35,171 bases of DNA, taken from assembly GCA_003646815.1 (NCBI GenBank), contig QMLQ01000004.1, positions 1 through 35,171 on the forward strand, given 5' to 3'. The translations under genes were made by a program, and so were the position numbers. This document shows positions 10,715 to 20,331 of this stretch, piece after piece. Every line of letters begins with the position of its first letter. The first letter of the stretch is position 1. Below the pieces are notes generated by a model. That model was not told the origin of the DNA. It made no database searches and worked only from the letters and a program-made list of their open reading frames with translations. This stretch comes from Deltaproteobacteria bacterium (GTDB taxonomy: Bacteria; Desulfobacterota; DSM-4660; Desulfatiglandales; Desulfatiglandaceae).

Positions 10715-10745
10715 CAGGGCTCAAAAATCAGACTTTTGAGCCCTG
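10715..10745. terminator. Bidirectional intrinsic terminator
   Basis: A perfect 12-bp stem (CAGGGCTCAAAA / TTTTGAGCCCTG) with a 7-nt loop starts 8 nt after the ThiS-like stop. On the plus strand it is followed by TTCTTTTAA, on the minus strand by ACTTTTC. It ends the oxidase-AOR-ThiS operon and probably also the convergent HNH gene, whose last codons and stop lie inside the hairpin. Confidence 0.85.
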
Positions 10746-11036
10746 TTCTTTTAATGATTCCAGGTAGGCATCCCACTCAATGGGAAGGAGGTACTTTTTC
10801 TTGCTGTTGCAATCCTTGCACGCAGGGACGATATTCCCTTTTCTGCTTTTTCCTCCCCTGCTTAAAGGCACCACGTGATCCATGGTGAGCTGCCCACGAC
10901 CCACCTTCTTCTTGCAGTAATAGCAGATCCCCTGGTTTATTCTCTGCAACCACCATTCGCTTTTTCTCAGTTTCCTGGCTTTTTCCTTCTCTCTCTTTAT
11001 CTCCCCATCAGTCACTTCAAAAGCATCAAAAACCAT
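10728..11036 (-). CDS. Small HNH endonuclease-domain protein
   Basis: A 102-aa protein consisting of a basic helical N-terminus (residues 10-35) and an HNH/McrA-type beta-beta-alpha-metal module. Seen: the zinc ligands C38/C41 (CYYC) and C73/C76 (CKDC), D53-H54 (MDHVVPLSRGG), N68 and N77. The core positions are all present, so nuclease activity is possible. The short length, without partner domains, resembles stand-alone HNH proteins common in anaerobe genomes. No intron, toxin-immunity or restriction partner was found next to it. The ATG at 11036 has AAGG upstream. The 3' end is embedded in the bidirectional terminator. Its upstream region is rich in inverted repeats. The biological target is unknown. 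Confidence 0.85.
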   Translation of the reverse strand: MVFDAFEVTDGEIKREKEKARKLRKSEWWLQRINQGICYYCKKKVGRGQLTMDHVVPLSRGGKSRKGNIVPACKDCNSKKKYLLPIEWDAYLESLKEQGSKV

Positions 11037-11144: not shown

Positions 11145-11245
11145 GCCCGCTTTTCTCACGGGCCTTCGTAGCGAGGCGGCGGGAAGGCCCGCGGATACAT
11201 GGGGCTGTTCGCCGCCACAGTAGATTGCCCGTGAGAAATACGGGT
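11145..11245. repeat. 101-bp element with 19-bp imperfect terminal inverted repeats (REP/MITE-like)
   Basis: The left end GCCCGCTTTTCTCACGGGC (11145-11163) and the reverse complement of the right end ACCCGTATTTCTCACGGGC (11245-11227) match at 16 of 19 positions, with 12 contiguous. Each end can also fold on itself (GCCCG...CGGGC; CCCGT...ACGGG). An internal 7-bp pair (GGCGGCG 11175-11181 / CGCCGCC 11210-11216) nests inside. A competing stem CGGGCCTTC/GAAGGCCCG (11159-11167/11183-11191) is also possible. The right end reaches the stop codon of the PilZ gene. It could be a miniature dispersed palindromic element, a processed structured RNA, or the operon's terminator region. It holds no ORF. 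Confidence 0.5.
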
Positions 11246-12276
11246 CAGGAAGGCTGGGCGCTCGTGATCAGCTCTCTTGCTTCCACCCCGATGACATACA
11301 TACCCCCGTAAGGCCCCTCTTCGACTTTTGTGACGTGCCTCACGACCGTATCAACCGTTATTATTGCCCAACTGGCATAAAATGTAATATTTTCTATTTT
11401 ATCCCCTTTCTTCAGTAATTTCAAGACACCGAAATCTTTTTCAGAAACAATAAGCCCGATCCCATGACTTGAATAGTTCATGACGTTCAGGTGATACTGT
11501 TTTCCTTTTCCTTTCGGCGTTTTCAGGGAAAACTCCACATAGACAAAATCCGGGATCCTGGTTGCTATTCTGTGTTCTCGCCGCTTTTCAGCTCCTTCCG
11601 ATACACTCCCTTTCCCGGGTTCCATCAGATCTTTGTCCGTATCCACCGGTGCCGAAACAGGTGCCGGAGTGCTTTGTTCCAGCGTTTCCAGCCGCGCCTC
11701 AATTTCCTTATCATCGGGGTCTATTTCCCTCGCCGACTGATAGAGCCTGCGGGCGAGATCCCTGTCCCCTCTCTTCTCAATCTCAAAACCAATTCGGAAC
11801 TGCACTCTCGCTTTTTCCTTTTTCCCCAGTTTCGGCCCTTCCAGTAACTTCTTTACGGTTGCCATGGCTTTGTCCGGTGATTCGAACCGGGCCAGGCAGC
11901 CCGCAATCTCGGGAACTATTTTGGCCGTTGGATAATCCAGTTGCAGCAGCCTTCCATACTCTGTAACAGCCTCTTCATAATGGCCCAACTCTTTCAAGGC
12001 AAATGCCCCATCCAGGAGGGCCTGTACATTTCCCGAGCCGGAAAGGGTCTTCTGTATCCTCGATATCTCTTCGCCGGAGACATCTTTCTGGGCGGCTTCC
12101 TTTTCCTGAACAACCTTTGCCTGGACCTCTGTTATTGCCGTCTCAATCTTTTCCTTTTCGTCGGCATCCAGGCCGGAGGGATTGCTCATGACCTTTTCAT
12201 AGACCCTCAGGGCCTCTGTGAAAAGCCCCATGGAGCAATATACTTCAGCTTCCTTGATCTTTGATTGGATATCCAT
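11245..12276 (-). CDS. TPR-like protein with C-terminal PilZ domain
   Basis: A 343-aa cytoplasmic protein, last gene of the GTPase-roadblock operon. Residues about 1-205 are helical TPR-like repeats (GLFTEALRVYEKVM, GHYEEAVTEYGRLLQLD, GDRDLARRLYQSAREIDPDD). A low-complexity linker rich in Pro, Ala and Ser follows (about 205-230). Residues about 232-340 form a PilZ domain with the cyclic-di-GMP signature: the RxxxR part in RREHR and the NxSxxG part in NYSSHGIG. Both halves of the motif are intact, so c-di-GMP binding is likely. TPR repeats suggest protein partners, perhaps other operon products. AGAGGAAC precedes the ATG. It looks like the output module that links the GTPase pathway to c-di-GMP, which is inference. 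Confidence 0.83.
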   Translation of the reverse strand: MDIQSKIKEAEVYCSMGLFTEALRVYEKVMSNPSGLDADEKEKIETAITEVQAKVVQEKEAAQKDVSGEEISRIQKTLSGSGNVQALLDGAFALKELGHYEEAVTEYGRLLQLDYPTAKIVPEIAGCLARFESPDKAMATVKKLLEGPKLGKKEKARVQFRIGFEIEKRGDRDLARRLYQSAREIDPDDKEIEARLETLEQSTPAPVSAPVDTDKDLMEPGKGSVSEGAEKRREHRIATRIPDFVYVEFSLKTPKGKGKQYHLNVMNYSSHGIGLIVSEKDFGVLKLLKKGDKIENITFYASWAIITVDTVVRHVTKVEEGPYGGMYVIGVEARELITSAQPS

Positions 12277-12336
12277 TATGTTCCTCTGCCTTCTGTAAGC
12301 ATCAGTATTCTGGTCTCAGCAAAGACGAAAAGACAC

Positions 12337-12702
12337 CTAGTTTTTCTTGAAAAAGCCTTTAAATTTGTCCCGCTTGACCATCTTCTTCATAGCCGGCACA
12401 AACATGTCACAGTTCAACCGAACCAGTGCCATTGGAGTTGCGGTACCGGTGATGATAAAGAGATACCCTATTTCAGTCTTCCTGATATAGATCCGGCCGT
12501 TTTCATAAAACACCTCTATTTCCCGGGCACCCCGCAATGAATGAATAAACAGGGCCAATGAATCATCGATTTTCGGTTCTCCGGCAAACGACCCCACAAA
12601 CTCCTTTAATACAAGCTGACCCTCGAATGAAACGAGCATCAACCCTTTTACATCACGTAACGTGAGAAGTTCATTAAAGTGATTATTCATAGATCTGTTC
12701 AC
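12337..12702 (-). CDS. Roadblock/LC7-like small protein
   Basis: Protein of about 121 aa with the alpha/beta pattern of the roadblock/LC7 (MglB-like) superfamily. Seen: LLTLRDVKGLMLVSFEGQLVLKEF near the start, then IYIRKTEIGYLFIITG, a middle strand pair, and a C-terminal helix ending in a basic tail (KRDKFKGFFKKN). Roadblock proteins dimerize and regulate Ras-like GTPases such as MglA. The start is uncertain. A GTG at 12702 has AGGTGA about 9 nt upstream, overlapping the response-regulator stop. An ATG at 12690 has no good ribosome site, so GTG is kept. It is a second, divergent roadblock protein in this operon and may form heterodimers with the first or scaffold the response regulator. Confidence 0.7.
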   Translation of the reverse strand: MNRSMNNHFNELLTLRDVKGLMLVSFEGQLVLKEFVGSFAGEPKIDDSLALFIHSLRGAREIEVFYENGRIYIRKTEIGYLFIITGTATPMALVRLNCDMFVPAMKKMVKRDKFKGFFKKN

Positions 12703-12711
12703 ACGGCAACA

Positions 12712-13764
12712 TCACCTGCTATTGCCTTCCGTCTCCACGATGAGGGCATGAATCATCCGGTCTCTCGGACATTTGCTGTCTACAGGGATCATAATGGTCT
12801 TATCTCCGGGCAGAAGGATGATATCCTGTGACCTCCCAACGTCCATGTAGGTGAGTTTTAACGGGCCGAATGAAAAAAGCTTTCCCATCCTTCCCATCTG
12901 TCCCAGAAGCCCGTCCCAGGCATTGTCATAATAGATTTTCTCGCCGCCATAGCGCGTTCCAATCGTACCCGTGAGCCTTTTTTTCACCTGCTCAAGCCCA
13001 CTCTCTTTTTTTCTTTTCTCCCCGTGTCCCAATGAAGCAGCGACTGTCATCACCGGTTTTTTCCGGGGGACTGCCGAGGCCTTTGCCTGTTCGTCCTTCA
13101 ACCGCATTGCCTCAAGCAATATGGCCTGCAGTTCACCTTTAATCTTTTTCTCCGAGCATCGGCAGGTATTTTCAATAGAGAGAGTAACCTCCTCCCAACT
13201 GAAAATATGATGTGCGGCTTCCTCGCCTTTGAACCCGTTCACCCGTGCATCAAGGAGTTCACCATCCCGAAAAAAAAGAACACCCCTCTTTCCGGAAGCC
13301 TTGTCAGACAGCCGTATGGTGCATGTCTTTTGCTCCATTTCTATAAGCTGCAGAAACATTCCGGAAGAGACATTGTGAAGCGTTCCACCGTCCGCCTCCC
13401 GCCGCAACCAGGTAAGGATAAGTTCAGCCAAAACGCTGCTCTTGAAGGGCTTTGCAATGTACCCGACAGCTCCGCCCTCGCTTGCCAGCTTCTCCATCTC
13501 ACTGGTGCTGTATCCGGTCATGACAATAACCGGGATATCGGGATAGCTCTCCATAACGTGCGCAAGAAGACCGAACCCATCGGTGTTTGGCATCTTCAAA
13601 TCCGTCACCACCAGAGAGATATCATCCCGGGCGAGTTTCCTGATCGCCTCCTCGCCGTTTCCGGCAGTAACTATTGAGAAGACTTCATTGTACTCCGCAA
13701 GGCCCTGTTGAAGGGACCGGAGCACCTCCTGCTCGTCATCTACAAGGAGGACATTTCTTCTCAT
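12712..13764 (-). CDS. Response regulator with receiver, DUF4388 and roadblock-like C-terminal region
   Basis: A 350-aa protein from the ATG at 13764, which has GGGAGAGG upstream; the track's TTG at 13782 is disfavoured. Residues about 1-120 are a receiver domain with the acidic pair in LLVDDEQ, the phospho-acceptor Asp in VVTDLKMP, the switch Thr in VIVMTGY and the Lys in AKPF, all present. Residues about 130-225 resemble DUF4388/PatA-type domains (LHNVSSGMFLQLIEMEQ, GVLFFRDGELLDARV). A Lys-rich linker follows. The last 90 residues, including LKLTYMDVGRSQDIILLPG, look roadblock-like. There is no DNA-binding domain, so output is through protein contact. No histidine kinase is encoded in the operon, so the phosphodonor must be elsewhere. 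Confidence 0.82.
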   Translation of the reverse strand: MRRNVLLVDDEQEVLRSLQQGLAEYNEVFSIVTAGNGEEAIRKLARDDISLVVTDLKMPNTDGFGLLAHVMESYPDIPVIVMTGYSTSEMEKLASEGGAVGYIAKPFKSSVLAELILTWLRREADGGTLHNVSSGMFLQLIEMEQKTCTIRLSDKASGKRGVLFFRDGELLDARVNGFKGEEAAHHIFSWEEVTLSIENTCRCSEKKIKGELQAILLEAMRLKDEQAKASAVPRKKPVMTVAASLGHGEKRKKESGLEQVKKRLTGTIGTRYGGEKIYYDNAWDGLLGQMGRMGKLFSFGPLKLTYMDVGRSQDIILLPGDKTIMIPVDSKCPRDRMIHALIVETEGNSR

Positions 13765-13827
13765 ATACCTCTCCCGATTCAATCCTCATTCCCTGCCCCC
13801 AGTCCTCTGGAACTCCGCTTCCCGTCT

Positions 13828-14961
13828 TTATCTCCTCCGACGCAGTCTTTCCATGGAAAGCCGTATGCTTTCCTGCATACGTCCGATGGCTTCCCCCAGG
13901 TCTCCGATTTCATCTTTGGATCGGATTTCCAATTCTTCATCCAGGGCACCAAGACTTATTTGTTCCGCCAAGCCGGTCAACGACTTAATTCTCTTTGTCA
14001 AGGCATGTCCGTACCACAGGACGATCAGAGCAATAAGCACCAGGGTACTTCCCAGGATCACAAATACACCGTTTTTCGTGTTAGCGCTGATCACTCCCGC
14101 TTTTTTCTCCAACCCTTTTACCTCTTTTGTGAATTCATCAAGATACGTTGTCGCTGCTATCACAAAGGAAGTGTTTCCCACCGGGGCGCAGACCATAAAC
14201 TTATCACGAACCCTTCCATCCTTATCTTTCCACCGGTAGTAACCTTTGGATTCTTTTCCTCCCCTGACGCCCGTATATACCTTCCAGAAACCGGCGAATG
14301 CTTTTCCCAGGGGTTTTTTGAGCTTACTCATATCAATGCCGATGATCTTGGGGTTCACGTGAACCCATGTGCGCCAGATTCCACTGCTGTCAGGCAACTG
14401 GTAGAGTGCGGTGTAGCCGGTGGCACCGACCTTTTGAACAGCCACTTTCTTGAACCCTTCATCCTGGAAAAAATTTTCCTTCCTGAGCTTCCGGTGACTG
14501 TCCAGGTAGAGGAGTACTTGAGACGCCACCGACTCGGCTTTTTCTTTGATAATATTTTCCGCAAGATGAGTTACCACCTGGCTGCTTTCGCCGGTAATAA
14601 GAGACGTCAGTTGATCCAGCTGCCTGATGTAAAGGAACCCGGCGGCGACCATGAGGATGACCGGTACGAGGAAAAAGAGGACGATCATCTTTGCCCTGAG
14701 ACCTAAGCGGCGGGAACGCTGTTCTTTGAGGCTTGCGAGTTCGGCCTGTACCGTCTCCGTTCCGATTGATTCCGCAGCCGGTGCTTCATTGCTTCCGGAA
14801 CCGGGCCATTCCAGATCCGCTCCCGTCCCGTTCATCTCGTCCGATTTCGAGATATCAAAAACGTGTCCGCATGCCTTGCAACGCACTTTGGCGTGTGCGC
14901 CCTTGATTTTCGTCGGATCGATCCGATACCTTCTTCCACATTCCTCACAAAAGATGATCAT
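13828..14961 (-). CDS. Membrane receptor: zinc ribbon - TM - Cache-like sensor - TM - HAMP, no output domain
   Basis: A 377-aa protein. An N-terminal MJ0042-type zinc ribbon has two CxxC pairs (CEEC at 5-8, CKAC at about 32-35). A disordered linker follows, then TM1 (MIVLFFLVPVILMVAAGFLYI). The extracytoplasmic domain of about 170 residues has Cache features (VGATGYTALYQLP; PVGNTSFVIAATTYLDEF). TM2 is VFVILGSTLVLIALIVLWYG, followed by a HAMP domain (SLTGLAEQISLGALDEELEIRS onward). The protein stops within about 15 residues of HAMP, in a run of arginines. Neither a kinase nor a methyl-accepting nor a GGDEF domain follows. That is unusual: the signal must pass by direct contact of HAMP or zinc ribbon with another protein. 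AAGGGGAA precedes the ATG. Confidence 0.85.
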   Translation of the reverse strand: MIIFCEECGRRYRIDPTKIKGAHAKVRCKACGHVFDISKSDEMNGTGADLEWPGSGSNEAPAAESIGTETVQAELASLKEQRSRRLGLRAKMIVLFFLVPVILMVAAGFLYIRQLDQLTSLITGESSQVVTHLAENIIKEKAESVASQVLLYLDSHRKLRKENFFQDEGFKKVAVQKVGATGYTALYQLPDSSGIWRTWVHVNPKIIGIDMSKLKKPLGKAFAGFWKVYTGVRGGKESKGYYRWKDKDGRVRDKFMVCAPVGNTSFVIAATTYLDEFTKEVKGLEKKAGVISANTKNGVFVILGSTLVLIALIVLWYGHALTKRIKSLTGLAEQISLGALDEELEIRSKDEIGDLGEAIGRMQESIRLSMERLRRRR

Positions 14962-15028
14962 TGCTATTCCCCTTTTTTCTCCAAGTTTTTCCCTGGCAAG
15001 AAGATCCCGAAAATTACCTTCTTGCCTC

Positions 15029-15505
15029 CTAAATTCCCAGCTCCTTCATTTTCTTGACCATGTTCTGCCTGAAGGCGATACCCTTTTCCTTTCGTCGGAT
15101 CTGTCTGGCAAGCAAGTCGACCAGCTCCGCCACAAGTGGTACGGGAAAACTGGATACCCGTTTCCCGAGATCAGCCACCGTGTCTTCGATCAGGATCCCT
15201 GAAATAGGGCCTACCGCAAGCGAAAGCTGTGCATTCAGATAGTCAAAAAATTCTGGGGGCAGGACAGAAACCTGTTCCCTGACCCGTTCAATGATCTGAA
15301 GTTTTGAGAGTTTTTCAAGGGCGTCCCTGATCTCAACCATCTCCATTCCGAGTGACTGGGCAATAGCGCTCACATTCCTTTTCCCGTCCAGTTCCATCAA
15401 GATACTGAGCATTCTGCTGTCCAGGGAAAACTCGCCAAGATCCTTCCGCAGGACTCGCTTGAAAATCATCCCGCCAATATTCTTTGTATCTGTCCCTTGC
15501 ACCAT
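15029..15505 (-). CDS. Winged-helix-like protein with C-terminal helical domain, unknown function
   Basis: Protein of 158 aa. Residues about 25-75 (LDSRMLSILMELDGKRNVSA, then AQSLGMEMVEIRDALEKLSK) look like a winged-helix/PqqD-like or DUF4388-associated fold. The C-terminal part (AVGPISGILIEDTVADLG and following helices) resembles a small domain I associate with roadblock and response-regulator clusters, perhaps DUF8082. This is recollection and was not checked. The start is either ATG 15505 or the next codon GTG 15502; GAGG lies 2 or 5 nt upstream respectively. There are no transmembrane segments. The 12-nt gap to the upstream gene and conserved strand place it in the GTPase operon. A role as adaptor between receptor and switch proteins is speculation. 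Confidence 0.75.
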   Translation of the reverse strand: MVQGTDTKNIGGMIFKRVLRKDLGEFSLDSRMLSILMELDGKRNVSAIAQSLGMEMVEIRDALEKLSKLQIIERVREQVSVLPPEFFDYLNAQLSLAVGPISGILIEDTVADLGKRVSSFPVPLVAELVDLLARQIRRKEKGIAFRQNMVKKMKELGI

Positions 15506-15517
15506 ATCCTCAACAGG

Positions 15518-16210
15518 TTACTTTTTGCCTTTTCGGCCTGATTTGCGCTTGGGCGCCTTCAGCTCATCCGCCAATCCCTGGATTTCTTCGCGCAGGGCTT
15601 TGAATTCTGCCTGAATAAGTTCTTTCAGTTCATTCAGGGCCGCCACAATGGGCTCAGGCATTCGCTGGCCTTCCTCCCAATCGATGGTAACATCTCTTCC
15701 CTCCACCAGCGGAGCAGCTGGTTTGCCTGGCTTGACCTTTTCCTCCACAACGCCCTTCTGTCCCTGGATTTCTCTTTTCAGGTCTTTGAATCGCTGCACT
15801 TCTTCCAGTAATATCGTTTCTTTTTCAATCTCCTTCAGCCCATCCGACGAGAGAATTTTCTCCAACGCGGAGTAAACCGAATTCAACACCTTAATGGCTT
15901 CAGGATTAGTCTTCGCCTTGTATTTCTTGATGTATCTTCCCAGTGAATCAAGCATCTTGAAAAAAGGCGCCATAATGCGGTTGCCGTTATAATTGTTCTT
16001 CAGTTTTGCGACTTCATCCAGGAAATGGCTCATGACCTCATCGGAGATCTCCCAATCTAATGAGAGGATAACACTCTGCAGCTCTCTTAAAGGAGATACC
16101 TGGGTTTCAAGAGGCTCATTCTCTTCATCGACTGTGCCGTCACCTTCAATAAAAATCTCGTCAAGGCGCTTTTCCACTTCATCCGTGAGCTTTGCTTTTT
16201 TCTTTGCCAA
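15518..16210 (-). CDS. Unknown coiled-coil cytoplasmic protein of the MglA operon
   Basis: A 230-aa protein when started at the TTG at 16210 (LAKKKAKLTDEVEK). The track start at 16294 would run 74 nt into the GTPase gene. TAGGAGAAG, which includes the GTPase stop codon, sits directly upstream of the TTG. The protein is highly charged and helical: an acidic N-terminal region, a central region (QSVILSLDWEISDEVMSHFLDEV) with repeated helices, a Pro/Lys linker, the segment VTIDWEEGQRMPEPIVAALNELKELIQAEFK, and a basic Lys/Arg tail. I do not recognise a named family. Translational coupling to the GTPase gene suggests that it is a GTPase effector or regulator. That is inference from position only. 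Confidence 0.72.
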   Translation of the reverse strand: MAKKKAKLTDEVEKRLDEIFIEGDGTVDEENEPLETQVSPLRELQSVILSLDWEISDEVMSHFLDEVAKLKNNYNGNRIMAPFFKMLDSLGRYIKKYKAKTNPEAIKVLNSVYSALEKILSSDGLKEIEKETILLEEVQRFKDLKREIQGQKGVVEEKVKPGKPAAPLVEGRDVTIDWEEGQRMPEPIVAALNELKELIQAEFKALREEIQGLADELKAPKRKSGRKGKK

Positions 16211-16220
16211 GGGTCTTCTC

Positions 16221-16826
16221 CTATTTGAATTCTTTTTCCAGTGCCGCCATGGTAAGTGTAATAATCTTCTTGAGGGTCTTGACCACATTATCACCCTTCA
16301 AGGCACTTGCCTCGAATGAGGGCACCTTCAACCTGCTGTTGAGATCCTTCTCCATTGTCTCGTAAGAAAGCAATGGGATCCCGTCTCCTGCCAGGTCGCG
16401 TTTGTTGTACTGCAGAACCAGCGGGATCTTAAAAATGCTTTTTTTATACGTGGAAAGGTTTTCCTGCAGGTTCTTTACAGAAAGCATATTGCTCTTTCTT
16501 CTCACTTTCATGGAATCGGCGACAAAAACCACCCCGTCCACCCCCCGCAGGACCAGTCTTCTCGTCGCGTTATATTTTACCTGCCCGGGAACTGTATAAA
16601 GCTGGATCTTGACATCATAGCCCTTGATTTTGCCCATTTCGAACGGAAGGAAATCAAAGAAGAGGGTCCTGTCGCCCTGGGTCTTGATCGCAATCATCTC
16701 GGTTTTGATACGGTCATTGAACTTATTATAAATATACTCCAGGTTGGTGGTCTTTCCACCTCTTCCAGGACCGTAATACACGATCTTGACCTGGACTTCC
16801 TTCTTTTTCAGGTTGACAAATGCCAT
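16221..16826 (-). CDS. MglA-like small Ras-family GTPase
   Basis: A 201-aa Ras-like GTPase of the bacterial MglA family. Seen: P-loop GPGRGGKTT (about 19-27), the switch-region Thr after it, TVPGQ in place of the eukaryotic DxxG switch II (as is usual for MglA), the conserved LRGVDGVVFVADS strand, NKRD as the G4 base-specificity motif, and SALKG as G5. All nucleotide-binding elements are intact. MglA proteins cycle between GTP and GDP forms under roadblock proteins and set cell polarity or motility in Myxococcus and relatives. An upstream roadblock gene (70-nt gap) is its probable GAP. GGGGGT precedes the ATG. It is transcribed with a receptor and a PilZ protein, which points to a signal-dependent polarity or surface-behaviour switch. 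Confidence 0.92.
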   Translation of the reverse strand: MAFVNLKKKEVQVKIVYYGPGRGGKTTNLEYIYNKFNDRIKTEMIAIKTQGDRTLFFDFLPFEMGKIKGYDVKIQLYTVPGQVKYNATRRLVLRGVDGVVFVADSMKVRRKSNMLSVKNLQENLSTYKKSIFKIPLVLQYNKRDLAGDGIPLLSYETMEKDLNSRLKVPSFEASALKGDNVVKTLKKIITLTMAALEKEFK

Positions 16827-16896
16827 GAAAGAATACCCCCTTCAAATATCCCTTTTTCAAGCAATGAAAAGTTCATTGTTATCCCAAGAGGCCCCT

Positions 16897-17301
16897 TCAT
16901 GGGCTCATTTGGTGACCCAGGACACCCGTAATTTCGTCGATTGCCTCCGCGACCTTTAATCGCAGAAACCCCAGCGAAACATCCTGGTCAAAAATGGTGA
17001 TGAGCAGAAATTCCTTCATCACTTTGCTGAAATGAATGCTTTCCTTCTTTCCTTTATGAAAAAGGAGGGAAAACTCATCTTCTCCGATTATCTTGGCCAT
17101 GGTGCTGACTGCCCCGAAATTTCCCGCTGCCAGGGCGGCCAGTGAATAGATATCGTGTTTCATCTTCCCCGAATCCTGGCTGGCTATGACGTTGCCTGCC
17201 ATATCAATGAGAAAAACGCACCTGACCCCTATGTCCATGAAGTCCTCTTCCAGGATTCCTTCAATGGCATCAAGCTCCTTTTGATCAAGAACGTACGTCA
17301 A
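16897..17301 (-). CDS. MglB-like roadblock/LC7 domain protein
   Basis: A 134-aa roadblock protein using the TTG at 17301. A very strong GGAGGTGG lies 4 nt upstream of it. The track start (17361) adds 20 residues of poor composition and would place that ribosome site inside the gene. Seen: the N-terminal helix DQKELDAIEGILEEDFMDIG, the strands VRCVFLIDMAGNVIASQD, the helix SLAALAAGNFGAVSTMAKIIG, and later strands (SLLFHKGKKESIHF; FLLITIFDQDVSLGFLRL). This matches MglB-like proteins, which dimerize and act as GAPs for MglA. It is the first gene of the eight-gene minus-strand operon. Confidence 0.87.
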   Translation of the reverse strand: MTYVLDQKELDAIEGILEEDFMDIGVRCVFLIDMAGNVIASQDSGKMKHDIYSLAALAAGNFGAVSTMAKIIGEDEFSLLFHKGKKESIHFSKVMKEFLLITIFDQDVSLGFLRLKVAEAIDEITGVLGHQMSP

Positions 17302-18281: not shown

Positions 18282-18377
18282 GGAGAGGTACCGAAGTGGT
18301 CGTAACGGGGTCGACTCGAAATCGACTTGTCCCGTGAAGAGCGGGGCACGTGGGTTCGAATCCCACCCTCTCCGCCA
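18282..18377 (+). tRNA. tRNA-Ser (anticodon CGA)
   Basis: Complete class II tRNA. Acceptor stem GGAGAGG/CCTCTCC, anticodon loop CTCGAAA with anticodon CGA, a long variable arm (CCCGTGAAGAGCGGGG), a T-loop GGTTCGAATCC, discriminator G and an encoded CCA (18375-18377). It reads UCG codons. It lies between tadA and the second serine tRNA. Confidence 0.96.
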
Positions 18378-18493
18378 ACAAATTGGATAAAATCATTTGA
18401 CAGTGCCACTCCCTAACACTATCTTGTGTCCATAAATATCATAGTGATCGCGGGGCACAATGTAGTTCCAATCAAGAAATGCCAAACAACCGC

Positions 18494-18588
18494 GGAGAGA
18501 TGTCCGAGCTGGCTGAAGGAGCGCGACTGGAAATCGCGTGTACCACCAAAACGTGGTACCGAGGGTTCGAATCCCTCTCTCTCCGCCA
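18494..18588 (+). tRNA. tRNA-Ser (anticodon GGA)
   Basis: Complete class II tRNA. Acceptor stem GGAGAGA/TCTCTCC, anticodon loop CTGGAAA with anticodon GGA, a long variable arm (TACCACCAAAACGTGGTA), T-loop GGTTCGAATCC, discriminator G and encoded CCA (18586-18588). It reads UCC and UCU. A small ACCGTT-CA-AACGGT hairpin follows at 18596-18609. Confidence 0.96.
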
Positions 18589-18681
18589 TTTCGTAACCGT
18601 TCAAACGGTGGGGATGGAACTTTGGTCCGGTGAATAATTTCAAGTTCCTTTCAGCACCCAAGTAATAAACCAAAGGCTGAA

Positions 18682-20331
18682 ATGACGTACGAAGTGTTGG
18701 CAAGAAAATGGCGCCCCCAGGGATTTGAGGACGTCATTGGCCAGGAACATGTTACCCAGACGCTGGTCAATGCCATTAAGACAGGCAGGCTTGCGCATGC
18801 CTATCTCTTTTCCGGTCCCAGGGGAGTGGGCAAGACTTCGGTGGCACGAATCCTTGCCAAGGCCATCAACTGCGAAAAAGGAGAACCGGGGAAACCCTGC
18901 AACCAGTGCCAGGTCTGCGAAGAAATCACTTCGGGCTCATCCGTTGATGTCCAGGAAATAGACGGCGCGTCCAACCGGGGCATTGATGAAATACGGGAAC
19001 TCCGGGGAAACATCAACTACATGCCTTCGTCCAGCAGGTATCGCGTTTACATCATCGACGAAGTGCATATGCTCACTCTCCCCGCTTTTAACGCCCTGCT
19101 GAAGACACTTGAGGAACCTCCACCCCACGTAAAATTCATTTTCGCGACCACTGAACCCCACAAGGTGCCGGTAACCATCCTGTCCCGGTGCCAGCGCTTC
19201 GATTTCAAAAGGATCCCGCTTTACAAGATTGTCGAGCATCTCCAGAACATATCCCGCCAGGAAGGCATTGAAATCAGCAAGACCAGCCTTTCCCTGATTG
19301 CAAAAGAGGCTGACGGCGGGATGAGGGATGCAGAAAGCCTCCTCGACCAGGTCGTATCCTTTTCCGGGACTACGGTGGAAGACAAGCAGGTCACCGATAT
19401 CCTGGGAATCATAGACCGGGAGATCCTTTTTCAGCTGTCCGGGTCTATCGTGGAAGGGGATATGAAAAAATGCCTGGAGATACTGGATCAAGTCTACAAA
19501 TACGGGTATGACATGAAGGCGTTCTACCGGAGCCTGATGCAGCAGATCAGAGATCTCCTCATCAGTCTCATAGCACGGGAAAACGACCTCGTGGAAATCT
19601 CCGAGAACGACCGGGGAAGAGTCAGAGAGCAAGCGGAAAAGGCTGGCCGGGAACGGCTCCAGATCATCCTGAATTTTCTTATGAAACGTGAAGAAAACCT
19701 CCGGTTCACCACTGATCCGCGCCTCCTGCTTGAAGCCGTCATTCTCCAGCTTTGTCAGATGGGAGACTTTCTCTCCTTCGGGGAAATCATTGACAGGGTG
19801 GAAGGCCTGGAAAAAATGCTCTCCGGGAGACCTGTTACTCGACCTTCTCCGGATATTCCGAGACTTTCTGATCCCGAGGCCCATTGGCAGGGAAAAGAGA
19901 CCCACGGATCTCCCGAAGACCTCCAGCCCTCCTCCGGCAAAAGCGAGTGGAAACGATTCCTGTCCTTTCTTTCTTCAAAAAACCGGGCCATGGCTAAGGT
20001 CCTGGAAGAATGGGAGCTCAAAAGCCTGTCAAAGGACTCCCTGGCATTGAAAAGGGGCAACCGGTCTTTTTCGACGGCCTACTTTGACGACGCTGAAAAA
20101 CTCGATCAGCTTCGCGTGTATTGCAGGGAGTTTTTCGGGCAAGATATCCGCATCAGCCTTCAGGGAAGCGCAAAAAGCGTGTCCCGGAACAAAGCAGTCG
20201 ACCCCCCAAAGGCCAAGAAAAAGAGTGTCGCACCTCAACAGGACTTTCCACCTCCGGTGAAGGACATTCTCGACGTATTTCAAGGCAAGGTCATTACCGG
20301 GGAATCACCGCGAAAGCCGACGTCAGACTGA
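18682..20331 (+). CDS. dnaX: DNA polymerase III subunit gamma/tau
   Basis: A 549-aa clamp-loader ATPase. Seen: the N-terminal YEVLARKWRPQGFEDVIGQ, Walker A GPRGVGKTS (about 45-53), the zinc module with four Cys (C64, C73, C76, C79; GKPCNQCQVC), Walker B IIDEVHML, the sensor 1 FATTEPHK and the SRC arginine finger LSRCQRFDF. The C-terminal part (about 360-549) is variable, with a Lys-rich linker and a tau-like end. I looked for an internal slippery frameshift site for gamma production. Only short A-runs are present, none with clear stimulatory structure. The ribosome site is weak (AAAGG). The stop overlaps the metC stop by 9 bp in convergent orientation. Confidence 0.96.
   Translation: MTYEVLARKWRPQGFEDVIGQEHVTQTLVNAIKTGRLAHAYLFSGPRGVGKTSVARILAKAINCEKGEPGKPCNQCQVCEEITSGSSVDVQEIDGASNRGIDEIRELRGNINYMPSSSRYRVYIIDEVHMLTLPAFNALLKTLEEPPPHVKFIFATTEPHKVPVTILSRCQRFDFKRIPLYKIVEHLQNISRQEGIEISKTSLSLIAKEADGGMRDAESLLDQVVSFSGTTVEDKQVTDILGIIDREILFQLSGSIVEGDMKKCLEILDQVYKYGYDMKAFYRSLMQQIRDLLISLIARENDLVEISENDRGRVREQAEKAGRERLQIILNFLMKREENLRFTTDPRLLLEAVILQLCQMGDFLSFGEIIDRVEGLEKMLSGRPVTRPSPDIPRLSDPEAHWQGKETHGSPEDLQPSSGKSEWKRFLSFLSSKNRAMAKVLEEWELKSLSKDSLALKRGNRSFSTAYFDDAEKLDQLRVYCREFFGQDIRISLQGSAKSVSRNKAVDPPKAKKKSVAPQQDFPPPVKDILDVFQGKVITGESPRKPTSD

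Follow-up and report, generated by a model that had tools for sequence, protein, structure and literature searches.

An MglA/MglB operon of the Desulfobacterota and its probable role in controlling a PilB/GspE-type assembly motor

We describe an operon of eight genes in a 35,171-nucleotide stretch of DNA (the window: positions 1 to 35,171 of contig QMLQ01000004.1, assembly GCA_003646815.1) from a deltaproteobacterium of the family Desulfatiglandaceae, whose genome assembly of 3.47 Mb is 93.5% complete. An initial annotation, made from the sequence alone, had placed eight genes on a single strand with short gaps, and this arrangement is confirmed: all eight open reading frames (ORFs) lie on the minus strand, from 17301 to 11245, with intergenic gaps of 9-70 bp, and comparison with a second genome of the same genus (L002) indicates purifying selection on every one (dN/dS 0.012-0.14). 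The genes, named P1 to P8 with mglA in the P2 position, and the features adjoining them are as follows.

16897-17301, minus strand: P1, MglB-like roadblock protein and presumed GTPase-activating protein, 134 aa (Robl_LC7, E 4e-9; dN/dS 0.041)
16221-16826, minus strand: MglA GTPase, 201 aa (PDB MglA, E 5e-56; dN/dS 0.012)
15518-16210, minus strand: P3, adaptor of 230 aa beside mglA, a new family with no Pfam or PDB match
15029-15505, minus strand: P4, 158 aa, winged-helix-like domain and conserved helical C-terminus (HTH_47 and PDB winged helix-turn-helix matches)
13828-14961, minus strand: P5, membrane receptor with zinc ribbon, two transmembrane (TM) segments, Cache-like sensor and HAMP
13765-13827: P5-P6 junction of 63 bp, the site of extra genes (F and/or G) in most relatives
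12712-13764, minus strand: P6, response regulator with REC, DUF4388/PATAN and a conserved tail
12337-12702, minus strand: P7, 121 aa, candidate divergent roadblock protein (low-confidence model and weak Robl_LC7 matches)
11662-12276, minus strand: tetratricopeptide repeat (TPR) half of P8, an orthologue of the N-terminal repeats in ~795-aa TPR::assembly-ATPase proteins
11245-11601, minus strand: PilZ half of P8, in place of the MshEN-T2SSE of relatives (sub-threshold Pfam match and motifs)
10715-11036, minus strand: HNH protein (102 aa, 11036-10728) and terminator-like hairpin (10745-10715)

The match of the MglA protein to solved MglA extends over residues 1-198, and the P-loop, the equivalents of Arg53 and Gln82 and the NKRD motif are all retained; no other MglA is present in the genome at E<=1e-10. 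P1, which most likely starts at a TTG codon at 17301 preceded by GGAGG, is the sole match to Robl_LC7 in the whole assembly and adjoins mglA, and from its sequence is presumed to act as the GTPase-activating protein for MglA; it scores 64 bits against the NCBIfam MglB model, under the 200-bit cut-off of that model. The MglA-like GTPase and the one clear MglB-like protein of the initial annotation are thus both borne out, the former also by its catalytic residues.

The receptor P5 carries a cytosolic MJ0042 zinc ribbon at its N-terminus (aa 1-36, 14961-14854; Zn_ribbon_4, E 3e-13), the top PDB match of which is AgmX/GltJ (7zok, E 6e-5). The zinc ribbon of GltJ binds MglA. GltJ is listed among the MglA effectors (PMC12288465). 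Behind the zinc ribbon lie two TM segments and a HAMP domain (E 4e-11), and a domain scan found neither a kinase nor a methyl-accepting chemotaxis protein output domain. The earlier description of P5 as a Cache-HAMP receptor with a zinc ribbon therefore stands in its last two elements, whereas the Cache part (E 5e-4) falls under the curated cut-off. P6 combines REC (E 5e-24) with DUF4388 (E 9e-14, above the Pfam cut-off) and has the residues needed for phosphorylation (D9, D10, D55 and K105), of which D55 is invariant in the orthologues. Beyond DUF4388/PATAN it continues into a conserved tail. This tail had been called roadblock-like, but it gave no match to the 121-aa P7 family, the sole comparison made for it.

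P7 had itself been put forward as a second roadblock-like protein, and a divergent roadblock remains a plausible assignment. Its model, built from two sequences and of low confidence (pLDDT 51), has the roadblock order of strands and helices, and roadblock chains appear among the non-significant fold matches of that model; Robl_LC7 is matched by three of 11 orthologues, the best at an E value of only 0.19. P7 itself has no Pfam match, and hhalign gave no match between the P7 and P1 families, so that profile comparisons, whether to P1 or to the P6 tail, lend the assignment no support.

Of the two proteins first regarded as unrecognised adaptors, only P3 keeps that description. Modelled from four sequences, P3 is a helical bundle (aa 40-152) with a C-terminal helix (aa 186-218), and searches of Pfam, PDB sequences and PDB folds returned no match, and its assignment to a known fold was dropped. 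In two loci (L029/L031) P3 is joined to the TM-HAMP part of the receptor. P4, by contrast, is winged-helix-like over residues ~28-78 in 15/15 members (HTH_47, best E 1e-5) and matches a PDB winged helix-turn-helix at E 0.003; membership of the CvnC family was considered and rejected, no such match appearing in a Pfam scan that covered weak matches down to E 0.1.

P8 matches TPR clearly in Pfam (E 7e-10) and PilZ below threshold (E 0.041, 14.6 bits against a gathering value of 22.5; one other orthologue reaches 14.0 bits, also below gathering). It nevertheless contains the motifs of c-di-GMP-type PilZ domains, RREHR (11583-11569) and NYSSHG (11478-11461), and RxxxR and NYSxxG are invariant in 7/7 PilZ orthologues; going by these motifs the domain probably binds c-di-GMP. 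In most relatives P8 is a different protein of ~795 aa, consisting of TPR, MshEN and a full T2SSE ATPase (E 1e-114) with Walker A (GPTGSGKT) and Walker B, a His box, the motifs GEMRD and TLHTNS, and CxxC pairs (two CxxC). A domain scan found no T2SSE domain in the window P8. Searching the order with a TPR profile recovers proteins of ~780-850 aa in most positive genomes, and the TPR-PilZ form (328-356 aa) is limited to four genera (g1, g4, g5 and g19), including that of the window. On a tree of MglB, MglA and P4 made by a quick search, one change is enough to account for the PilZ carriers (SH-aLRT 83), a distribution consistent with a single replacement; since distant families also carry the ATPase, this form is probably ancestral and PilZ derived, with modest support.

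The fused ATPase is also linked to mglA outside the complete operon: in L158, L159 and L164 its gene follows immediately downstream of mglA, in L162, L163 and L169 the two genes are neighbours, and P3 is absent from all six loci. Within the genome of the window, T2SSE loci lack TPR, and the related ATPases L069 (a GAF-ATPase, present in 8/8 genomes tested) and L071 branch outside the fused TPR::ATPase clade. The ATPase was thus lost in the window lineage and not detached; simple fission is rejected on the grouping of L071 and L069 with GAF-ATPases. A REC/PAS-kinase-like protein of ~1066-1225 aa, encoded between P7 and TPR::ATPase in two further loci (L166 1114-4314; L167 6907-10584), is a candidate donor of phosphate to the system.

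P3 was found in 19/46 genomes of the family, 28/85 of the order and 66/394 sampled across the phylum; these are mostly draft assemblies, and absences may therefore be gaps. Within the order, ~20 loci share the arrangement MglB-MglA-P3-P4-P5, and P6 and P7 are adjacent in every examined locus that extends to them. Distant families also have the whole gene set, f63 in L122 and L127 and f75 in L134; L130 and L135 contain most of the parts, and in L140 the set is rearranged. The neighbourhoods of P3 and P4, which the initial annotation had proposed for examination, are thus conserved across several families, and its reservation that the gene order might prove not to be conserved can be set aside.

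Its suggestion that the system is complete in the window fares less well. In most relatives the P5-P6 junction holds a gene F (~330 aa, weakly DUF4388-like, E 0.011), a gene G (PAS-PAS and a HisKA-like dimerisation box, with no ATPase domain), or both. Both are missing from the window, and a search with no internal positive control did not find F in either genome of the window's genus; F is present and G absent in L034 and L035. With these two genes absent and the TPR-linked ATPase half replaced, the version in the window is a reduced one. Loss of G is not strictly tied to that of the ATPase, as L122, L127 and L134 keep the ATPase and lack G.

The P3 family extends beyond this arrangement. In f17 and f100 the gene directly downstream of mglB-mglA encodes a protein of 798-1050 aa in which the P3 domain is repeated (L129 7457-9853, L132 8994-12146 and L133 9458-12040). 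A second class of ~480-610 aa has a P3-like N-terminal domain, a coiled coil and a C-terminal region (L041 5363-7183, L055 9117-10778, L056, L057 and L058); this last region (FLFQMGGKKYAVDEGNVIK...) resembles CheW by eye and has no Pfam match. In two Desulfobacteraceae metagenome-assembled genomes (L003 2446-5007 and L004 4781-7758) two MglB genes flank MglA and are followed by P3, and the gene after P3 in L004 encodes a zinc-ribbon and FHA-like protein.

Taken together, we think it likely, with moderate confidence, that the operon encodes an MglA/MglB-based switch controlling a PilB/GspE-type assembly motor, most likely that of type IV pili. The fusions and gene linkage described above join P3 to the receptor on the input side and MglA to the TPR and ATPase on the output side by Rosetta-stone reasoning; all protein contacts, the direction of signalling and the choice of pili over secretion as the output are inferred. 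The Cache-HAMP receptor would sense a signal from outside the cytoplasm and would use its zinc ribbon and P3 to recruit MglA or shift it to the GTP form, and P1, perhaps together with P7, would reset it to GDP. REC-PATAN P6 may bring phosphorelay input to the motor side. MglA-GTP would bind the TPR domain of P8, and in most relatives this binding would act directly on the fused PilB-type ATPase; in the window lineage the TPR-PilZ output would reach a separate ATPase in trans and would require, or be tuned by, c-di-GMP as a second condition. The genome encodes five GGDEF proteins, PilT/PilU-like ATPases, PilM, and PilB beside a pilin-like gene, so that c-di-GMP, motor and pilus elements are all available. 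Elsewhere in it (contig C215, L074 2317-2991) a protein that combines an MJ0042 zinc ribbon and a receiver-like region is encoded next to tandem PilT/PilU-like ATPase genes, another zinc ribbon next to pilus motors.

Several points weigh against this interpretation. The fused ATPase subfamily is far, on the tree, from the pilin-linked PilB of the same genome, which bears on pili versus type II secretion, and the fused ATPase itself has been lost in the window lineage, where the paralogue L071 groups with GAF-ATPases. PilZ proteins of the Pseudomonas aeruginosa type act on pili without binding c-di-GMP. A profile of the seven P8 PilZ sequences found no PDB match, and the Pfam match is sub-threshold; of the TPR-PilZ protein originally proposed, the TPR and the invariant PilZ motifs hold, but the PilZ assignment lacks these two kinds of match.

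The alternative that survives best, though we consider it unlikely, keeps the same switch and has the ATPase drive type II or exopolysaccharide-type secretion instead of type IV pili. T2SSE covers PilB and GspE alike, the fused ATPases and their paralogues are far from the pilin-linked PilB, and the paralogues in the genome of the window are solo genes. However, all the MglA, TPR (SgmX) and PATAN proteins whose partners are known act on PilB and pili (PMC7668184, PMC11580455, PMC12288463), which favours a pilus motor.

The model of the initial annotation, a stand-alone signalling chain with c-di-GMP as its output, is improbable. The invariance of RxxxR and NYSxxG in the TPR-PilZ lineage and the presence of GGDEF proteins in the genome do connect the window to this messenger, but the eight proteins contain no cyclase or phosphodiesterase (GGDEF or EAL) domain, and PilZ reads the messenger and does not make it, which would place it on the input side. 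Moreover, a PilZ domain that took the place of the ATPase in a single lineage excludes c-di-GMP as the ancestral output, and we dropped this as the leading explanation. As P8 in this genome lacks the ATPase half, a motor output could not be seen from the window alone; what remains of the earlier interpretation is a single conserved system that combines an MglA/MglB switch with a membrane receptor.

We give no greater weight to a system like the actinobacterial conservon, with the GTPase under the control of a membrane sensor and P4 affecting transcription or serving as a guanine nucleotide exchange factor like CvnC/MfpC. The outline of parts is similar (sensor, roadblock, small protein and GTPase; PMC13343842, PMC4316618) and P4 has a winged helix-turn-helix-like domain, but P5 has no kinase domain, P4 does not match CvnC in the Pfam scan, the gene order and extra parts differ, and MglA has the Arg and Gln of the Myxococcus xanthus type. 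That unrelated genes came together by chance, for which nothing more than the unusual mixture of domains speaks, is barely credible given the order kept across many genera and several families, the short gaps and the purifying selection on all genes.

The system preferred here, a switch module acting on an assembly motor, has partial counterparts among those already described. In M. xanthus MglA-GTP binds the TPR repeats of SgmX, which lies upstream of PilB (PMC7668184, PMC11580455), although no direct SgmX-PilB contact was detected (PMC11580455). This pathway (MglA/MglB-SgmX-PilB, with RomR/MglC) shares with the operon an MglA with Arg53/Gln82, an MglB-like roadblock, a receiver protein, a TPR effector, a PilB-type ATPase and a zinc ribbon that is GltJ-like in sequence, but mglA in M. 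xanthus is not near the genes of its response-regulator partners (PMC4316618), whereas here one operon adds a Cache-HAMP receptor, PATAN and two new adaptors. SgmX is all TPR; P8, being TPR-PilZ or TPR::ATPase, is not filed as SgmX, though it may work in an SgmX-like way. The nearest operon-scale analogue is the conservon/AGPS system (CvnA-D; PMC13343842), which also places a membrane sensor, a roadblock, a small protein and an MglA-type GTPase in one operon; CvnA, unlike P5, is a histidine kinase, P4 has no CvnC-family match, and the four core proteins include no TPR, PilZ, ATPase or PATAN. The cyanobacterial REC-PATAN regulators PixG and PixE bind PilB1 (PMC12288463, PMC7690835) and share REC and PATAN/DUF4388 with P6, which in most relatives is encoded beside a PilB-type ATPase; the papers cited here describe no MglA/MglB in their pathways, and P6 has its extra conserved tail.

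The proximity of MglA/MglB to PATAN proteins was noted previously (Makarova 2006; Wuichet & Sogaard-Andersen 2014; PMC4316618); TPR, PilZ, DUF4388, pilus and zinc never occur in the text of the latter paper (PMC4316618). We found no description of the full operon or of the TPR::ATPase fusion in the literature searched, which lay mostly outside subscription journals, and within that scope the initial impression that no system of this composition had been described was correct: the operon is apparently undescribed. More tentatively than for the operon itself, we suggest that across the phylum a Ras-like GTPase may gate a pilus-assembly motor directly through a fused TPR effector, and that one lineage may have swapped the motor for PilZ to give a two-signal gate (GTPase and c-di-GMP) acting in trans. 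With regard to how MglA and SgmX reach the PilB motor, a natural TPR::PilB-type fusion beside mglA across the phylum suggests direct contact and gives single-polypeptide constructs for the MglA-motor contact. The replacement of the ATPase by PilZ suggests a route for wiring c-di-GMP into this switch, and the operon contributes a candidate receptor and candidate adaptors whose counterparts in M. xanthus are scattered or unknown.

A small protein resembling HNH endonucleases adjoins the operon in three of the TPR-PilZ genera (window 10728-11036, minus strand; L034 14763-15071; L035 6539-6886; L042 13056-13364), its gene lying downstream of the operon in some and upstream in another. The gene, also kept in L002 under purifying selection, is followed in the window by a strong two-way terminator-like hairpin (10715-10745); it is possibly co-transcribed with the operon but is probably a bystander. 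Between tadA and dnaX the window contains two tRNA-Ser genes, with CGA and GGA anticodons (18282-18377 and 18494-18588), and a 94-aa minus-strand ORF (18419-18703) that overlaps the second of them is spurious.

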